From Ralstonia sp. UNC404CL21Col (GTDB taxonomy: Bacteria > Pseudomonadota > Gammaproteobacteria > Burkholderiales > Burkholderiaceae): a stretch of DNA of 64,000 nt. Positions 3,123 to 62,390 of the stretch are shown piece by piece. Within the stretch, counting starts at the first letter, position 1. Each line of letters begins with the position of its first letter. Location of the stretch: positions 313,964 to 377,963 of the forward strand of contig NZ_KK211140.1 of the NCBI RefSeq assembly GCF_000620465.1, written 5' to 3'. The position numbers and the translations under genes were made by a program. Under the pieces are notes generated by a model, which was not told the DNA's origin, did not search any database, and worked only from the letters and a program-made list of their open reading frames with translations.

Positions 3123-3322
3123 GGTTTCTCCTACGGGTAACGGGATCGGTTCTTGTGGATTTGCCGATATCCGGCGCATCGGAGGGATATTGGGGGAATC
3201 GGACGGAGGATGCGCCGGCAAAATACAATAGCAAAACAGTACGTAGAGTGGCCAGGGCGCCGCAAAGTTCATGCCGCGTCACCGTTGGCCCGTCCCCCAT
3301 TCGCATTAGATTTGTGGAGCAA

Positions 3323-4414
3323 ATGTTGAGCGTAACCATCGAACAGATCACCGAAGCCCTGCGCGGCGTGGTGGATCCCAATACCGGGCGCGACCTCGTG
3401 TCGTCCAAATCGGCGCGCAACATCCGGGTCGATGGCGGCGAGGTATCGCTCGACGTGGAGCTGGGCTATCCGGCCAAGAGCCAGTTCGATCCGATCCGCA
3501 AGTTGGTGATCGGGGCGCTGCGCCAGGTGCAAGGTGTCGAAAATGTGAGCGTGCAGGTATCGATGAAGATCGTCGCGCACGCCGTGCAGCGCGGCGTGCA
3601 TCTGATGCCGAACGTGAAGAACATCATCGCCGTGGCCTCCGGCAAGGGCGGTGTGGGCAAGTCGACGACCGCCGTGAATCTGGCGCTGGCGCTGGCCGCG
3701 GAAGGTGCCAACGTCGGCATTCTCGACGCCGATATCTACGGTCCGAGCCAGCCGATGATGCTGGGCATCCAGGGCCAGCCGGAGTCAGCCGACGGCAAGA
3801 CGATGGAGCCGATGGAGGGCCACGGCCTGCAGGCCAATTCGATCGGTTTCCTGATCGAGCAGGACAACCCGATGGTTTGGCGCGGCCCGATGGTCACCTC
3901 GGCGCTGGAGCAACTGCTCAAGCAGACGAACTGGCGCGACCTGGATTACCTCATCGTCGACATGCCGCCGGGCACGGGCGACATCCAGCTCACGCTGTCG
4001 CAGAAGGTGCCCGTGACGGGCGCGGTGATCGTCACCACGCCGCAGGACATCGCGCTGCTCGACGCCAAGAAGGGCCTGAAGATGTTCGAGAAGGTGGGGA
4101 TTCCCATCATCGGCGTGGTCGAGAACATGGCGGTCTACTGCTGCCCGAACTGCGGCCACACCGAACACATTTTCGGTGCCGGCGGCGGCGAGAAGATGTG
4201 CGAACAGTACGGCGTGCCGTTCCTGGGCAGCCTGCCGTTGAATCTGTCCATCCGCGAGCAGGCCGATTCAGGCCGTCCGACCGTGGTGGCCGACCCGGAC
4301 GGCGCCATTGCCGGCGTCTACAAGCAGATCGCGCGCCGCGTCGCCATCGCCGTGGCCGAAAAGGCGAAGGACATGACGAGCAAGTTCCCGTCGATCGTCG
4401 TGCAGAACACCTGA
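3323..4414 (+). CDS. apbC: iron-sulfur cluster carrier ATPase ApbC/Mrp
   Basis: P-loop ATPase of the Mrp/NBP35 family that carries and transfers Fe-S clusters in the cytoplasm. The 363-residue protein begins MLSVTIEQITEALRGV after a GGAG ribosome site. An N-terminal MIP18/DUF59 domain covers about residues 5-85. The deviant Walker A GKGGVGKS is at 107-114, and a CCPNC cluster-binding motif lies near 273-277. It stands directly before a formate dehydrogenase locus that needs many [4Fe-4S] clusters, and DUF3305 starts 4 nt after its stop, so co-expression with that locus is likely but inferred. Confidence 0.95.
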   Translation: MLSVTIEQITEALRGVVDPNTGRDLVSSKSARNIRVDGGEVSLDVELGYPAKSQFDPIRKLVIGALRQVQGVENVSVQVSMKIVAHAVQRGVHLMPNVKNIIAVASGKGGVGKSTTAVNLALALAAEGANVGILDADIYGPSQPMMLGIQGQPESADGKTMEPMEGHGLQANSIGFLIEQDNPMVWRGPMVTSALEQLLKQTNWRDLDYLIVDMPPGTGDIQLTLSQKVPVTGAVIVTTPQDIALLDAKKGLKMFEKVGIPIIGVVENMAVYCCPNCGHTEHIFGAGGGEKMCEQYGVPFLGSLPLNLSIREQADSGRPTVVADPDGAIAGVYKQIARRVAIAVAEKAKDMTSKFPSIVVQNT

Positions 4415-4418
4415 CGCC

Positions 4419-4946
4419 ATGGAACCCACGTCGCCGCTGCCCGCCGACCGCCCGTCCGTACGGGTGGCGGTGGTGCTGTGCCGCCGCCCGACGGCCAACC
4501 GTTGGCAGCCGTATCAGTGGCGGCTGGAAGCGGTCGTGCCCGACCTGGGCGAATACGGCACGGCGCCGCGCTGCCTCGATCGAGCCGACGATGGGACCGG
4601 CGAAGAGCGTTGGCTCACGCCAGGCTTCTCCGTTACGCTGTTTCGCGACGAGGCCGAAGGCTATTACTTGAACGTGACCTCCGCCGCGCCCTGCTGGTTT
4701 GTGCTGTGGCGCCTGGGCGAGCCGGGCACGGCCGACGAAGGCCGCGCGATTCCGCATACGGTTTCGCTGAGCTACAACGAAGCCGGTCGCTGGCTCGACG
4801 GCGGCGAGACGGTCGAAAACGTGCCGTTGGATGCCGCTGCGCTGGAGTGGCTGCAGGCGTACGTGGCTGAAAACTACCGGCCCGAGCCGAAGAGGCGGCG
4901 CCGACCGGAGTCGTTTCTGCCGCCGGAAGACCGCGCGAAGTTCTGA
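4419..4946 (+). CDS. DUF3305 protein of the formate dehydrogenase locus
   Basis: A 175-residue protein of a family (DUF3305) found almost only in formate dehydrogenase loci. Its biochemical function is unknown. The sequence has VRVAVVLCRRPTANRW near the N-terminus, and a central segment in which an aromatic 'YYLNVTSAAPCWFVLWR' stretch is the most distinctive. There is no signal peptide, so it is probably cytoplasmic. It begins 4 nt after apbC and is followed after 11 nt by its usual partner DUF3306, which is the main support for the assignment. A maturation or assembly role for formate dehydrogenase is inference from context. Confidence 0.85.
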   Translation: MEPTSPLPADRPSVRVAVVLCRRPTANRWQPYQWRLEAVVPDLGEYGTAPRCLDRADDGTGEERWLTPGFSVTLFRDEAEGYYLNVTSAAPCWFVLWRLGEPGTADEGRAIPHTVSLSYNEAGRWLDGGETVENVPLDAAALEWLQAYVAENYRPEPKRRRRPESFLPPEDRAKF

Positions 4947-4957
4947 GTGAAGCTGCT

Positions 4958-5527
4958 GTGAGCGAAGAAACTTTCCTCTCGCGCTGGTCGCGCCGCAAGG
5001 CTGCCGAGCGGCGGGGCGAACCCGAGCCGGAACCGCAACCGCCAGCGGCCCCGCCCGCCGAGCCTGCGCCGGTGGCCGTGCCCGAAGCGTCGGCGGCCGC
5101 GCCCACGCCGGAGGCGCCACCGCCGCTGACGCTGGCAGACGCCGCCAAGCTGACGCCCTCCGATGATTTCGCGCCGTTCGTCGCGCAAGGGGTGGACGAA
5201 GCCGTCAAGCGCGCCGCGCTCAAGAAGCTCTTTGCCGATCCGCACTTCAACGTGATGGACGGCCTCGATACCTACATCGACGACTATTCGCAGCCTGACC
5301 CAATCCCCCCCGAGATGTTGCGCGAGCTGCGCCATACGGCGGAATTACGGTTGTTCGAGCCGCTTGACGACGATGTGGCGCCGCCGGTAGGAGTCGAACC
5401 GGTATCGGACGCTTCGCCCGCTGTGACCGGCGAGACCCCGCCTGAAGCCGCGGATGCCGAGCCGCCCGCCGACGACCCCGCCCAGGCAAGCCCGCATGGC
5501 GGCGCTAAGCCACCGTCCGTAGAATAA
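4958..5527 (+). CDS. DUF3306 protein of the formate dehydrogenase locus
   Basis: A 189-residue protein with a GTG start (SEETFLSRWSRRKAAERR). Its low-complexity middle is rich in Pro, Ala and Glu (about residues 20-55). The conserved DUF3306 core FADPHFNVMDGLDTYIDDYS and PEMLRELRH lies at about 90-125, followed by another acidic, proline-rich tail. No signal peptide or membrane segment is visible. DUF3306 regularly pairs with DUF3305 in formate dehydrogenase loci, as here. The function is unknown. The short positively charged N-terminus and flexible linkers suggest a scaffold or adaptor, which is only a guess. Confidence 0.85.
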   Translation: MSEETFLSRWSRRKAAERRGEPEPEPQPPAAPPAEPAPVAVPEASAAAPTPEAPPPLTLADAAKLTPSDDFAPFVAQGVDEAVKRAALKKLFADPHFNVMDGLDTYIDDYSQPDPIPPEMLRELRHTAELRLFEPLDDDVAPPVGVEPVSDASPAVTGETPPEAADAEPPADDPAQASPHGGAKPPSVE

Positions 5528-57734: not shown

Positions 57735-57750
57735 TGCAATATGCGTACCA
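57735..57750 (-). promoter_or_regulatory. sigma-54 promoter of the porin gene
   Basis: Minus-strand TGGTACG-N4-TTGCA, differing from consensus TGGCACG-N4-TTGCA at one base and with the required GG-N10-GC spacing. The predicted start near 57725 gives a leader of about 95 nt. Confidence 0.7.
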
Positions 57751-57866
57751 CGGCGTTCGCAGTGGATTGCAAGGAGTTGCATGCCGTTGATTAACGTTTG
57801 CGACACGCGTGCCGATGGGGGCGATGTGGCGTGGCGGGACAGTCGGCGCAACACCTGTCCGCGGTC

Positions 57867-57883
57867 TGTTCCGCAATGGAGCA
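57867..57883. promoter_or_regulatory. putative enhancer site TGTTCC-N5-GGAGCA (porin)
   Basis: An imperfect inverted repeat located about 117 nt upstream of the porin -24 element. The same 6+6 bases with the same spacing occur at 60708-60724. The 10-mer GCAACACCTG also precedes both (57848-57857 here). Confidence 0.6.
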
Positions 57884-57890
57884 GCCGCGG

Positions 57891-58859
57891 TCAGGCGCTC
57901 GGCGCGCTTTGCATCCAGCGATCTTCAAGCTCGCGCCATGCACGTCCGACGTTCAGCGCATGGCGAGGGTGGAAGTTGCGCCAGTCGCGGTAGGTGTCGC
58001 CCGGGACGTAGTCGAGTGCGCGGGCCGCGTCGCCGCCGGCTTCAATGGCGCGCGTGATGGTGCTTGCGAGCATGTCGAGATACGACAAGGTCGGGCGCAG
58101 CATCTGCGCAGGCGTGCCGATGCTGGTGCCGACGACGATGTGGGCGGGCAGTTGCTCCAGCCCATGCAGCGCGCGTTGCCACCCAACCAGCGAGCCGTCC
58201 TGCAGGTCTGGGACGCGCTGCCGATATGCCAGCCCACCTGTGCACAGCACCCCGCGCTGCGGCGCGTACAGCACCGTATCGGATGCGCTGTGTGCTGCTG
58301 TGTAGACGTGCACCTGCCACGCCGTCTTGCCGGTGTGCAGCCAATCGCCATCGCGCAGTGCCGGTTCCGGATACACGATCTGCGTTTCATGCATGACGCG
58401 CGCACCGAGCAGGGTGGTCAGCCGCGCCAAACAGGTTTCGCAACGCTGCCGCATGAGGTCAGCCGTGGCGGCGGATGCCAGGAAGGCCGGGCGCGGCTGC
58501 AGTTGTGCGAAGGCGGCGTTGGCCAGCACATGCTCGGGATGCGCGTGCGTGTTGACGACCCAGCGAATGGGCTCGGCCGTGATGTGCCGGATGGCCGCGA
58601 TCAGTTGGTGTCCCCATCGCGCGTGCGGGCCAGGGTCGACCACGAGTACGCCGTTGCCTGTGGTGTGTACCAGCGTGGGCACGACTTCTCCGGCATTCGC
58701 GCGTGAGGCTTCTGCGTTGGCAGCGCGCGCGGCGTAGAGGCCGTCCTGCAGGCGCAGCAGCGTGACACGTGCGGGTGCCGCAGATACGGTCGGCGCCGGG
58801 GTGATCAAGGTCGCGAGCATGATGCGCATCCAGCGTCGCCGGGCGGGGTCTGGCGCCAT
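57891..58859 (-). CDS. quinoprotein relay system metallohydrolase (MBL fold)
   Basis: A 322-residue exported protein of the metallo-beta-lactamase fold, related to SoxH. It belongs to the group named 'quinoprotein relay system zinc metallohydrolase', which occurs with SoxYZ-like carriers beside PQQ dehydrogenases. The metal motif is THAHPEH (105-110, with Glu where Asp is usual). A further His190 lies in AAHSASD, but the C-terminal metal-ligand histidine is absent (VVGTSIG instead). A hydrophobic N-terminal segment follows an arginine run (ARRRWMRIMLATLITP). The function is unknown. It is the last gene of the operon, 1 nt after its sister gene. Confidence 0.85.
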   Translation of the reverse strand: MAPDPARRRWMRIMLATLITPAPTVSAAPARVTLLRLQDGLYAARAANAEASRANAGEVVPTLVHTTGNGVLVVDPGPHARWGHQLIAAIRHITAEPIRWVVNTHAHPEHVLANAAFAQLQPRPAFLASAATADLMRQRCETCLARLTTLLGARVMHETQIVYPEPALRDGDWLHTGKTAWQVHVYTAAHSASDTVLYAPQRGVLCTGGLAYRQRVPDLQDGSLVGWQRALHGLEQLPAHIVVGTSIGTPAQMLRPTLSYLDMLASTITRAIEAGGDAARALDYVPGDTYRDWRNFHPRHALNVGRAWRELEDRWMQSAPSA

Positions 58860-58860
58860 G

Positions 58861-59808
58861 TCAGGGCGCCAGGGCGGCGTGCTCGTAGCCGGGGTAGAAG
58901 CGGGTCACGTTGCGCGTGTACTCCGCGGGCATGCCACCCCACTGCGCGTAGGGCGCGTCTACCGGCATCGCAATCACCTCGGCCAGGTCGCGTCCTTCGG
59001 TTGCCGCGCGGCGCATGCGGGCATCGAGCCACTGCAGGTACTGGCGTGTCTGGGCGATGGCGTCTGCGTTGCCCAGGGCGGGCCCGTGGCTCGGGATCAA
59101 CACGCGCGCGCCGCTGTCGGCAACGATCTTCTGCAGCCGATCGAGGCTCGCCAGCCAATGCGCAATGTTGGCGTGCGGCGTGGTGGGAATCCGGTCGCGA
59201 AAGGCAATGCCGCCAGCGAAGACCACACCGCTCGTCCGGTCCACAACTACGAGGTCGTCATCGGTATGTCCGTCGAGGCGGATGAGGTCGATGCGATGGC
59301 GCCCCATGGTGCGAGCTCCCGGGCTCAATGGCGTGCCGGGCGGTGTCGATACCGTGTTCTGCATCCACGCACCGCAGATGCGGTAGAGATTGTCGGCATA
59401 GGCCGCGCCCTCGCGTTGCGCACCGGCGATGGTGCCGGGTAGCGCTTGCGCGCCGACATCCGCATAGGCCTGGTTGCCGAAGAAATAGTCGGGGTGCAGG
59501 TTCAGGTTGAATACCCAGCGCACCGGGGCCGATGTGACCGTGCGAATGGCTTCGCGCTGCTGCTCGCCGTACTGCAGCGACGGCCCGGTATTGATGACGA
59601 GCACGCCATCGCCGGTATCAATGAAGCCGGTGTTGATGATGTTGCAGCCGTTGCGCGCAGAAAAATCCGCGTTGGCGCCTTCCAGCACCCAGACGTCCGG
59701 CGCAACCGCGCGCGGTACGAGGTGGTAGTCGGGGCCCGCCGCACGTGCCAGGGCACTCAACATTGCAAGACACAGCAGGAGGCCCAACCATGGGTGGCGT
59801 CGGCTCAT
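58861..59808 (-). CDS. quinoprotein relay system metallohydrolase, divergent metal site
   Basis: A 315-residue periplasmic protein with signal peptide WLGLLLCLAMLSALARA, of the same SoxH-related metallo-beta-lactamase fold. The usual HxHxDH motif is changed to N103-L-H105-P-D107-Y108. His181 (GHTDDD) and His241 (PSHGP) remain, and the NTGFIDTGDGVLVINTG strand is typical. So it keeps the late ligands and loses early ones, the opposite of its neighbour. It overlaps the SoxYZ-like gene by 4 nt and is probably co-translated. The catalytic activity is not established for the family. Confidence 0.85.
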   Translation of the reverse strand: MSRRHPWLGLLLCLAMLSALARAAGPDYHLVPRAVAPDVWVLEGANADFSARNGCNIINTGFIDTGDGVLVINTGPSLQYGEQQREAIRTVTSAPVRWVFNLNLHPDYFFGNQAYADVGAQALPGTIAGAQREGAAYADNLYRICGAWMQNTVSTPPGTPLSPGARTMGRHRIDLIRLDGHTDDDLVVVDRTSGVVFAGGIAFRDRIPTTPHANIAHWLASLDRLQKIVADSGARVLIPSHGPALGNADAIAQTRQYLQWLDARMRRAATEGRDLAEVIAMPVDAPYAQWGGMPAEYTRNVTRFYPGYEHAALAP

Positions 59809-60584
59809 CGTGTCACCTGTGCGCGGATGCGGTTGCCGTTGTTGTCGACGCCGGCGACGCTGATGCCGCGTTCAACGGGGCCATCTATATCGAACGAGAA
59901 GATCGGGTTCTCGGCGACGGGCTCGTACAGCGCGAGTTCAAGCATGGGCTGGCGCTTGGCATCGAGCAGGTTGAGCTGCTCGATATGGAACGACGGAATG
60001 CCCGCCACCAGGCCGGTGTCCATCGGATGCATCACGCGCACGCGGATGCGGCTGCCTGCGCCGTTGAAGCCCGGAAACACGCGCGACTCGACCTGGTTCA
60101 GCGTGGTGCTCCAGGTGGCGTTCTGGCGCGTGGCGCCCGGCAGCGTGCAGCCGCCGCCGGTGGCGTCCACCTGCAACGTACCGACATGCCAGACACCGTC
60201 CTGCGTACGCGCCGCCACGCGCAGTGCAGACGCTTCCTGCAGCTTGAACCGGAACGACAGCGCCGGCCGCGCACGCATCGGCGTGAATTCCAGCACCTTG
60301 CGGATCGGGTTGCGATCCACCACGACGATGATGCGCTCCACCTTGCCGAGCGCCGACGCATCAAACGCAATCGGCACCTGCATCGGATCTTCCGCAAATG
60401 CCGGCCCGGTGATCCTGATGCGGTTGTCGAACGTCGTCCGCGCTGGGCCAAACACTTCCTGACGAATCGTCGGCCACAGCGGCGAGCCTGCAGGGTCGAC
60501 GTTCGTATCGGCGCAGGCCTGCGATGACAGACACGCCACGGCCAGCGCGGCAGCGGCAGCAGCATGAAGGGGAGCCGTTCTCAT
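59805..60584 (-). CDS. quinoprotein dehydrogenase-associated SoxYZ-like carrier
   Basis: A 259-residue periplasmic fusion of SoxY-like and SoxZ-like halves. The signal peptide (PLHAAAAAALAVACLSSQACA) is followed by a SoxY-like part ending in DATGGGCTLPG with Cys146, the likely carrier thiol. The SoxZ-like part has SRIRVRVMHPMDTGL and PIFSFDIDGP. In sulfur oxidation SoxYZ holds substrates on a cysteine arm. Here the family is tied to PQQ enzymes, and the bound substrate is unknown. It heads the three-gene minus-strand operon and is divergent from an aldehyde dehydrogenase. No clear ribosome site is seen. Confidence 0.88.
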   Translation of the reverse strand: MRTAPLHAAAAAALAVACLSSQACADTNVDPAGSPLWPTIRQEVFGPARTTFDNRIRITGPAFAEDPMQVPIAFDASALGKVERIIVVVDRNPIRKVLEFTPMRARPALSFRFKLQEASALRVAARTQDGVWHVGTLQVDATGGGCTLPGATRQNATWSTTLNQVESRVFPGFNGAGSRIRVRVMHPMDTGLVAGIPSFHIEQLNLLDAKRQPMLELALYEPVAENPIFSFDIDGPVERGISVAGVDNNGNRIRAQVTR

Positions 60585-60620
60585 GGTGTGGCGTGGAAGT
60601 TCGGATGAAAGGCTCGCATC

Positions 60621-60635
60621 GCGAAAGTCGTGCCA
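60621..60635 (-). promoter_or_regulatory. sigma-54-like promoter of the SoxYZ-metallohydrolase operon
   Basis: Minus-strand TGGCACG (exact -24 consensus), then N4 and TCGC, keeping the GG-N10-GC spacing; the -12 element is weaker than consensus. The predicted start near 60609 is 25 nt before the SoxYZ-like ATG. Confidence 0.55.
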
Positions 60636-60686
60636 TGCGTGCAGCGTGTTCGCACGCGGGGCCGCCCGTTGTTCAGGCGATGGGGC

Positions 60687-60724
60687 GTTGCGCTTTGCAA
60701 CACCTGCTGTTCCATTCTGGAGCA
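60687..60724. promoter_or_regulatory. putative shared enhancer region between divergent sigma-54 promoters
   Basis: Contains GTTGC-N5-GCAAC (60687-60701) and TGTTCC-N5-GGAGCA (60708-60724), the latter identical in arms and spacing to the site before the porin. It lies about 64-100 nt from the plus-strand -24 element and 52-90 nt from the minus-strand one, a suitable range for an activator serving both. Confidence 0.6.
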
Positions 60725-60787: not shown

Positions 60788-60803
60788 TGGCCCGGGTTTT
60801 GCA
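60788..60803 (+). promoter_or_regulatory. sigma-54 promoter of the aldehyde dehydrogenase gene
   Basis: TGGCCCG-N4-TTGCA, one base from consensus, with GG-N10-GC spacing. The predicted start near 60814 gives a leader of about 56 nt to the ATG. Confidence 0.72.

Positions 60804-60869: not shown

Positions 60870-62390
<1,521 letters not shown>

Follow-up and report, generated by a model that had tools for sequence, protein, structure and literature searches.

In Pseudomonas putida KT2440 the ped cluster brings together a porin (PP_2662), a SoxYZ-like protein (PP_2677), a SoxH-like hydrolase (PP_2678), cytochrome c550 (PedF), a solute-binding protein (PedG) and an alcohol dehydrogenase (PedH), and the parts of the report drawn on here describe induction of the porin with the pathway by ethanol and methanol (PMC12997753). 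BmoR of Thauera butanivorans is characterized, in the portion of the source used, as a sigma-54-dependent activator that answers C2-C8 n-alkanols (PMC8784404). An insect-associated genomic region in Burkholderiaceae symbionts carries genes for PQQ synthesis, for a PQQ alcohol dehydrogenase and for a Fis family regulator that depends on sigma-54 (PMC9088363). Titles and abstract openings of the open-licence literature yielded nothing on control of such a cluster by sigma-54 and an enhancer-binding protein (EBP) in Ralstonia or Cupriavidus, which is weak evidence of absence. The Ralstonia locus analysed here resembles the ped cluster, as far as the partial description of the latter extends, in that a porin, SoxYZ-like protein, SoxH-like hydrolase, cytochrome c and PedH-type alcohol dehydrogenase are located in one cluster.

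Results

Gene content of the cluster

The window (the whole stretch of 64,000 nucleotides analysed, C5:313964-377963 of a 5.09-Mb Ralstonia assembly) contains a divergent gene pair, with a soxYZ-like carrier and two SoxH-related zinc hydrolases encoded on the minus strand and exaC on the plus strand, followed by the porin gene on the minus strand (Table 1). Among the named loci compared, the SoxYZ-like protein matches those of Ralstonia loci at 89-94% and those of R. pickettii at 93-94%. The genome holds 22 Porin_4 matches including the porin of the window, some of them fragments at contig ends, and the "dedicated" outer-membrane entry route proposed in an earlier, sequence-only reading of this DNA would therefore be dedicated in regulation at most.

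The quinoprotein alcohol dehydrogenase gene (L048:5083-6837), beyond the window end, is the sole match in the genome over the TIGR03075 cut-off. The nearest solved relatives of the product are 6zcv and 6zcw ("quinoprotein ethanol dehydrogenase"), which we take to be PedH of P. putida. A WDFDG motif is present in the Ralstonia protein and in both structures, and 1flg has WDFSG; since the second Asp is presumably the lanthanide signature and the motif is that of the PedH-like relatives, the enzyme is possibly lanthanide-dependent. PqqB, PqqC and PqqE all exceed their family cut-offs, and the cytochrome c encoded beside the regulator gene was named from a CxxCH motif on reading the translation. 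In gene content the cluster is of the ped/exa type, since it encodes a SoxYZ-like carrier and an aldehyde dehydrogenase besides the PQQ alcohol dehydrogenase, the cytochrome c and the pqq functions. Between exaC and the alcohol dehydrogenase gene (window 62653 to L048:4876) are encoded a TonB-dependent receptor, a beta-propeller ORF (YVTN-like by reading) and a cytochrome b561; the box-dyad scan described below found no pair before any of the three. The TonB-dependent receptor might serve metal uptake.

Table 1. Genes and control sequences of the cluster (window positions unless a locus or contig is named).
Feature	Position	Strand	Remarks
Outer-membrane porin gene (Porin_4), 376 aa	56500..57630	-	PF13609, 7.4e-51
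Porin sigma-54 -24/-12 box, TGGTACG-CATA-TTGCA	57735..57750	-	1 mismatch; 10/12 columns invariant, 13 Ralstonia-group loci
IHF-like sequence between porin enhancer and box	57780..57792	-	1 mismatch to WATCAANNNNTTR
Extra half-site GCAACA (first 6 bases of the 10-mer)	57848..57853	+	kept in 12/13 aligned loci
Porin enhancer dyad, TGTTCC-GCAAT-GGAGCA	57867..57883	+	exact
SoxH-related zinc hydrolase, quinoprotein relay type	57891..58859	-	best model TIGR04559, below its cut-off
Quinoprotein relay zinc metallohydrolase 1	58861..59808	-	TIGR04558, over cut-off
Fused SoxYZ-like carrier, quinoprotein dehydrogenase-associated	59805..60584	-	TIGR04557, over cut-off
soxYZ-hydrolase operon sigma-54-like box, TGGCACG-ACTT-TCGCG	60620..60635	-	two mismatches
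Second dyad, CGTTGC-GCTTT-GCAACA	60686..60702	+	22 bp from main dyad; 10/12 arm columns invariant, 13 loci
Enhancer dyad common to soxYZ and exaC, TGTTCC-ATTCT-GGAGCA	60708..60724	+	exact; 10/12 arm columns invariant, 13 loci
exaC sigma-54 box, TGGCCCG-GGTT-TTGCA	60788..60803	+	1 mismatch; 12/12 columns invariant, 13 loci
Acetaldehyde dehydrogenase gene, exaC	60870..62390	+	NF050026, over cut-off
AcoR-type EBP gene, 676 aa	L048:11614-13644 = C5:387613-389643		GAF, Sigma54_activat, AAA lid, Fis HTH

The porin promoter

The sequence-only reading had placed upstream of the porin gene a minus-strand sigma-54 box one base off consensus and a TGTTCC-N5-GGAGCA dyad, the latter repeated at 60708-60724. 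The box and both exact dyads were recovered, the reference for the box being TGGCACG-N4-TTGCW, which we take to be the sigma-54 consensus. The dyad is upstream of the box as described, although the gap is 116 bases rather than the 117 nt given. In 13 aligned loci this gap has a mean identity of 0.80 with 40 of 116 columns invariant. Compared with the wider site TGTTSC-N5-KRAGCA defined below, the porin dyad of these loci is exact in four, has one mismatch in seven and two mismatches in two, one of the last being that of a close relative (L147); a TGTTGC variant present in three loci still fits the wider site. The porin dyad is nevertheless the least conserved of the set, with eight of 12 arm columns invariant (p = 0.03). 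The IHF-like sequence between dyad and box was scored against WATCAANNNNTTR, presumably the IHF consensus, and no such sequence turned up at any of the four further promoters scanned.

A second candidate for the porin box (57799-57814), one of the six boxes with at most two mismatches in the window, is nearer to the dyad, at 52 bases, but was discarded for lack of conservation: none of 12 aligned relatives retains its GG-N10-GC core. An inverted repeat, GGACAG...CTGTCC, at 57837-57860 surrounds the GCAACA half-site and, by reading, is partly conserved in relatives. Outside the Ralstonia group the porin itself was matched at one locus only, with 36% identity (tblastn, 1e-20, flanks up to 10 kb).

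The soxYZ-exaC intergenic region

The soxYZ box has TCGC in place of TTGC in all 13 aligned loci. The sequence-only reading had also noted a 10-mer, GCAACACCTG, preceding both dyad copies. It does precede both, at 57848 and 60697, and occurs nowhere else on either strand of the window, but at unequal distances, 9 bases from the porin dyad and 1 base from the soxYZ/exaC dyad. Since the second dyad at 60686-60702 includes the first six bases (GCAACA) of the 60697 copy, the 10-mer is best seen as a half-site. Thus, it was rejected as a separate element; GCAACA is the part kept in relatives, where 12 of 13 loci have it at soxYZ/exaC and L058 has GGAACA instead.

Frequency of the dyads and boxes

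The exact motif occurs twice in the window versus a mean of 0.02 in dinucleotide shuffles, none of 100 of which reached two. Genome-wide it occurs three times, the third time inside a coding ORF that reads in translation as an apparent subtilisin-like protease. Variants were found before the quinoprotein alcohol dehydrogenase gene beyond the window end (TGTTGC-GAAAT-GGAGCA) and between the EBP and cytochrome c genes (TGTTGC-GCCAT-GAAGCA and TGTTGC-ATTCC-TGAGCA). The wider site TGTTSC-N5-KRAGCA, derived after seeing the five cluster sites and fitted to them, occurs seven times in 5.09 Mb versus none for the reversed pattern. Five of the seven are in one 18-kb cluster, preceding the porin gene, the SoxYZ-like gene/exaC, the PedH-like alcohol dehydrogenase gene and the cytochrome c/regulator pair, and two are in coding ORFs; the site at C4:1597885 is inside an ORF of 423 aa. 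The wider site is therefore above chance frequency genome-wide, as the sequence-only reading had anticipated for its motif, although the 12 letters on which that reading relied are over-specific. Since the wider site was fitted to the cluster, the relatives provide the independent tests.

When one mismatch is allowed, the wider site occurs 97 times in the genome versus 57 for the reversed pattern, a background that swamps the signal, and no targets are claimed outside the cluster for this reason. Fourteen loci representing part of the one-mismatch sites (L001 and L021-L033) were scanned for a box near the exact or one-mismatch site. The only one-mismatch box was that of L029, the alcohol dehydrogenase locus; in L026 a one-mismatch dyad has two boxes near it, with two and three mismatches, L024, L028, L031 and L032 have three-mismatch boxes only, and eight loci are without a box. 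A recurrent background match, TGTTGCCCAGCGAAGCA, read in genome G007, is inside an ORF recognised as succinate dehydrogenase SdhA.

Taken by themselves, sigma-54 boxes occur in the window about as often as chance predicts: six with at most two mismatches were found, and 20 block-shuffled versions averaged 5.5. It is box, dyad and conservation together that make up the evidence. Pairing of a box (at most three mismatches) with a dyad (at most two) over the window and the 19.5-kb adjacent stretch gave 16 rows versus none in the reversed sequence. The rows belong to the porin, soxYZ, exaC, alcohol dehydrogenase, cytochrome c and pqqB promoters, to the second porin box at 57799 and to weak pairs at three other places (window 27748, window 36491 and L048 10258). 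Box mismatches number one for porin, exaC and alcohol dehydrogenase, two for cytochrome c and soxYZ, and three for pqqB, which is preceded by TGGCCGACTTCTTGCT and a one-mismatch dyad. Of 13 aligned loci, 12 share the pqqB box letter for letter, and the dyad is degenerate in some. By reading, an apparent terminator hairpin followed by a T-run is present between pqqA and pqqB (L048:10363-10580), with the pqqB box after the hairpin, so that pqqA and the genes from pqqB onward may be controlled apart.

Conservation within and outside the genus

Close copies of the EBP (86-100%) are encoded in 13 of 16 genus genomes, the genome of the window included, and the SoxYZ-like gene was found in the same 13 (1e-20). 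Two dyads are present beside the EBP gene in all 13 genomes with both genes and in none of the other three. In two of the latter, G004 and G007, no EBP was found at a cut-off of 1e-150, and the stretches fetched from G004 and G005 gave no matches to the proteins of the cluster. In the third, G013, whose assembly has the lowest completeness (88%), nothing closer to the EBP than a 59% relative was found; in this genome, which is without the SoxYZ-like gene, a dyad of the same type (L199:2996-3012) and a two-mismatch box stand before a diverged quinoprotein dehydrogenase gene (3299-4969; 41% identity). A second EBP at 54% is encoded in G012 and G014, and the genus thus has further EBPs of this family.

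Promoter alignments, comprising 11-13 distinct sequences per gene after identical ones were dropped, show the dyads and boxes as conserved islands. Invariant columns make up 61 of 72 in the dyad arms versus 130 of 409 between features (p = 2e-17), a figure that excludes the second alcohol dehydrogenase site, chosen because it is conserved; when that site is added the count is 72 of 84 (p = 3e-20).

For a comparison reaching beyond the genus, 64 distinct alcohol dehydrogenase promoters were obtained from 80 named loci and the genome of the window, the filter requiring 300 or more upstream bases, 68% or higher identity and an alignment start within the first 30 residues. By record title the loci are mostly Burkholderiales with a few Rhodocyclaceae and unplaced proteobacteria. 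A sigma-54 box with at most two mismatches is present within 250 bp in 60 of the 64 promoters versus 1.45 expected from 20 dinucleotide shuffles. A dyad with at most two mismatches is located 20-150 bp upstream of the box in 50 of these 60 versus 3.25 expected, leaving ten boxed promoters without one at that threshold; outside Ralstonia the dyad was found at 42 of 52 and the reversed pattern at none. The loci are related by descent and were chosen for having a SoxYZ-like gene, so these counts are not independent events. A stricter scan of 71 loci (1.27 Mb) gave 33 box-dyad rows versus none in reversed sequence, some rows being one palindromic site counted on both strands and some being away from the anchor genes. 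In the Cupriavidus loci L067 and L069 a box-dyad pair precedes the exaC match. In the 11 Cupriavidus-group loci (L060-L069 and L085) no dyad of the tested form was found within 750 bp upstream of soxYZ, nor any strict box-dyad pair near soxYZ.

The candidate regulator

An AcoR/NtrC-family regulator had been expected nearby, and the EBP gene was found 9.6 kb beyond the end of the window; gene to gene, the distance to the porin is about 16 kb. The deduced protein has Walker A (GETGTGKE) and GAFTGA motifs and, with a GAF domain, a sigma-54 AAA+ domain carrying GAFTGA and a Fis HTH, is of the AcoR type. The genome encodes two sigma-54 proteins and contains 12 strong Sigma54_activat matches, among which only the EBP of the cluster is on contig C5; the contig also has two weak matches (22-27 bits). 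A one-mismatch sigma-54 box, TGGCAAGGGTCTTGCT, on the minus strand at L048:13739-13754 (C5:389738-389753) points toward the EBP gene and overlaps one of its two dyads, an arrangement that suggests autoregulation. Ten of 12 aligned promoters have the same box letters, and the other two differ in the N4 spacer only.

Discussion

It is highly probable that one AcoR-type EBP controls the whole quinoprotein alcohol-oxidation set, porin included, through the dyads and sigma-54 boxes. The proposal that porin, SoxYZ relay and aldehyde dehydrogenase answer to a single regulator is thus well supported, but the set is larger than was proposed, adding the quinoprotein alcohol dehydrogenase, the cytochrome c/regulator intergenic site and a weaker pqqB site. 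The two repeats would be upstream activator sequences of the EBP, which is predicted to bind the 17-bp dyads as dimers, to assemble on them and, through looping of the DNA, to contact sigma-54 RNA polymerase at the -24/-12 boxes, with the N-terminal GAF region sensing an alcohol, an aldehyde or a related signal. Promoters opened in this way would be those of the porin gene, the soxYZ-hydrolase operon, exaC and the quinoprotein alcohol dehydrogenase and cytochrome c genes, and probably that of pqqB. Since the porin gene shares control sequences with the alcohol-oxidation genes and the likely regulator is encoded close by, the porin is most likely switched on together with the alcohol oxidation machinery; such co-induction with periplasmic alcohol oxidation would probably widen substrate entry and raise the supply of alcohol to the periplasmic enzyme. 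Greater entry is not necessarily an advantage to the cell, since truncation of the ped porin during adaptation to ethylene glycol is reported to have improved growth (PMC12997753).

The porin is the last same-strand gene after soxYZ and the two hydrolases, the porin dyad is the least conserved, and Porin_4 proteins are numerous in this genome, all of which would fit an enhancer that serves soxYZ, exaC and the alcohol dehydrogenase gene with an incidental copy at a porin gene that is constitutive or reached by read-through from the upstream operon. That account is improbable given that the porin box is better conserved than the adjoining gap and that the dyad stays within two mismatches in 13 of 13 loci, with some changes, such as TGTTGC, still fitting the wider site. 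Similarity of repeats and boxes by chance or local GC-rich composition could be argued from the shuffled-level frequency of boxes and the modest excess of one-mismatch dyads over the reversed pattern, but is contradicted by the exact dyads, the box pairing, the cross-genus conservation and the reversed-pattern controls, and can practically be set aside.

The 6-N5-6 geometry of the dyads is that of NtrC sites, which raises the question of whether another of the 12 EBPs, for example NtrC, reads them and the set answers nitrogen instead of alcohols. The dyad letters, however, differ from TGCACC-N5-GGTGCA, which we take to be the NtrC consensus; apart from the two matches in coding ORFs, the wider site occurs nowhere outside the quinoprotein region, which is unexpected for a general nitrogen regulator; and the EBP of the cluster tracks the SoxYZ-like gene in all 16 genus genomes. 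Control by a different EBP is accordingly very unlikely, and control by the AcoR-type EBP of the cluster is the preferred reading. For quinoprotein alcohol oxidation outside Pseudomonas, the results specify a site, a regulator and a list of targets, together with sigma-54 promoters that are probably responsive to alcohols or aldehydes, and the poorly understood SoxYZ-like relay and the porin become testable as parts of one regulon. On a broader scale, the chances are about even that in many Burkholderiales PedH-like, lanthanide-type alcohol oxidation is switched by a sigma-54 EBP with its own 17-bp dyad instead of PedS/PedR, the Ralstonia regulon having recruited the porin and SoxYZ relay to form one unit from input to periplasm.

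The likeness of the EBP to the AcoR-type activators of acetoin operons consists of the GAF, sigma-54 AAA+ and Fis-type HTH domains, and some relatives are labelled "transcriptional regulator of acetoin/glycerol metabolism". In this comparison 26 NCBIfam families were matched and, among the 25 shown, none reaches its cut-off. In contrast to AcoR, the named neighbours of the Ralstonia EBP are pqq, quinoprotein and cytochrome genes, none of them acetoin dehydrogenase. BmoR, likened here by description rather than by sequence or site, controls butane monooxygenase in the available account, unlike the alcohol-oxidation set of Ralstonia (PMC8784404). The regulator of the Burkholderiaceae symbiont region is also likened by description, the portion of the report drawn on giving gene content and trees rather than binding sites or a regulon (PMC9088363). 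Relative to the ped cluster, the porins are likened by cluster position and by an induction that in Ralstonia is predicted, rather than by sequence homology, within the excerpts used. The excerpts name PedS2-PedR2 and AgmR as regulators, with CbrB named as sigma-54-dependent (PMC12997753), whereas the Ralstonia cluster has sigma-54 boxes, dyads and an AcoR-type EBP.
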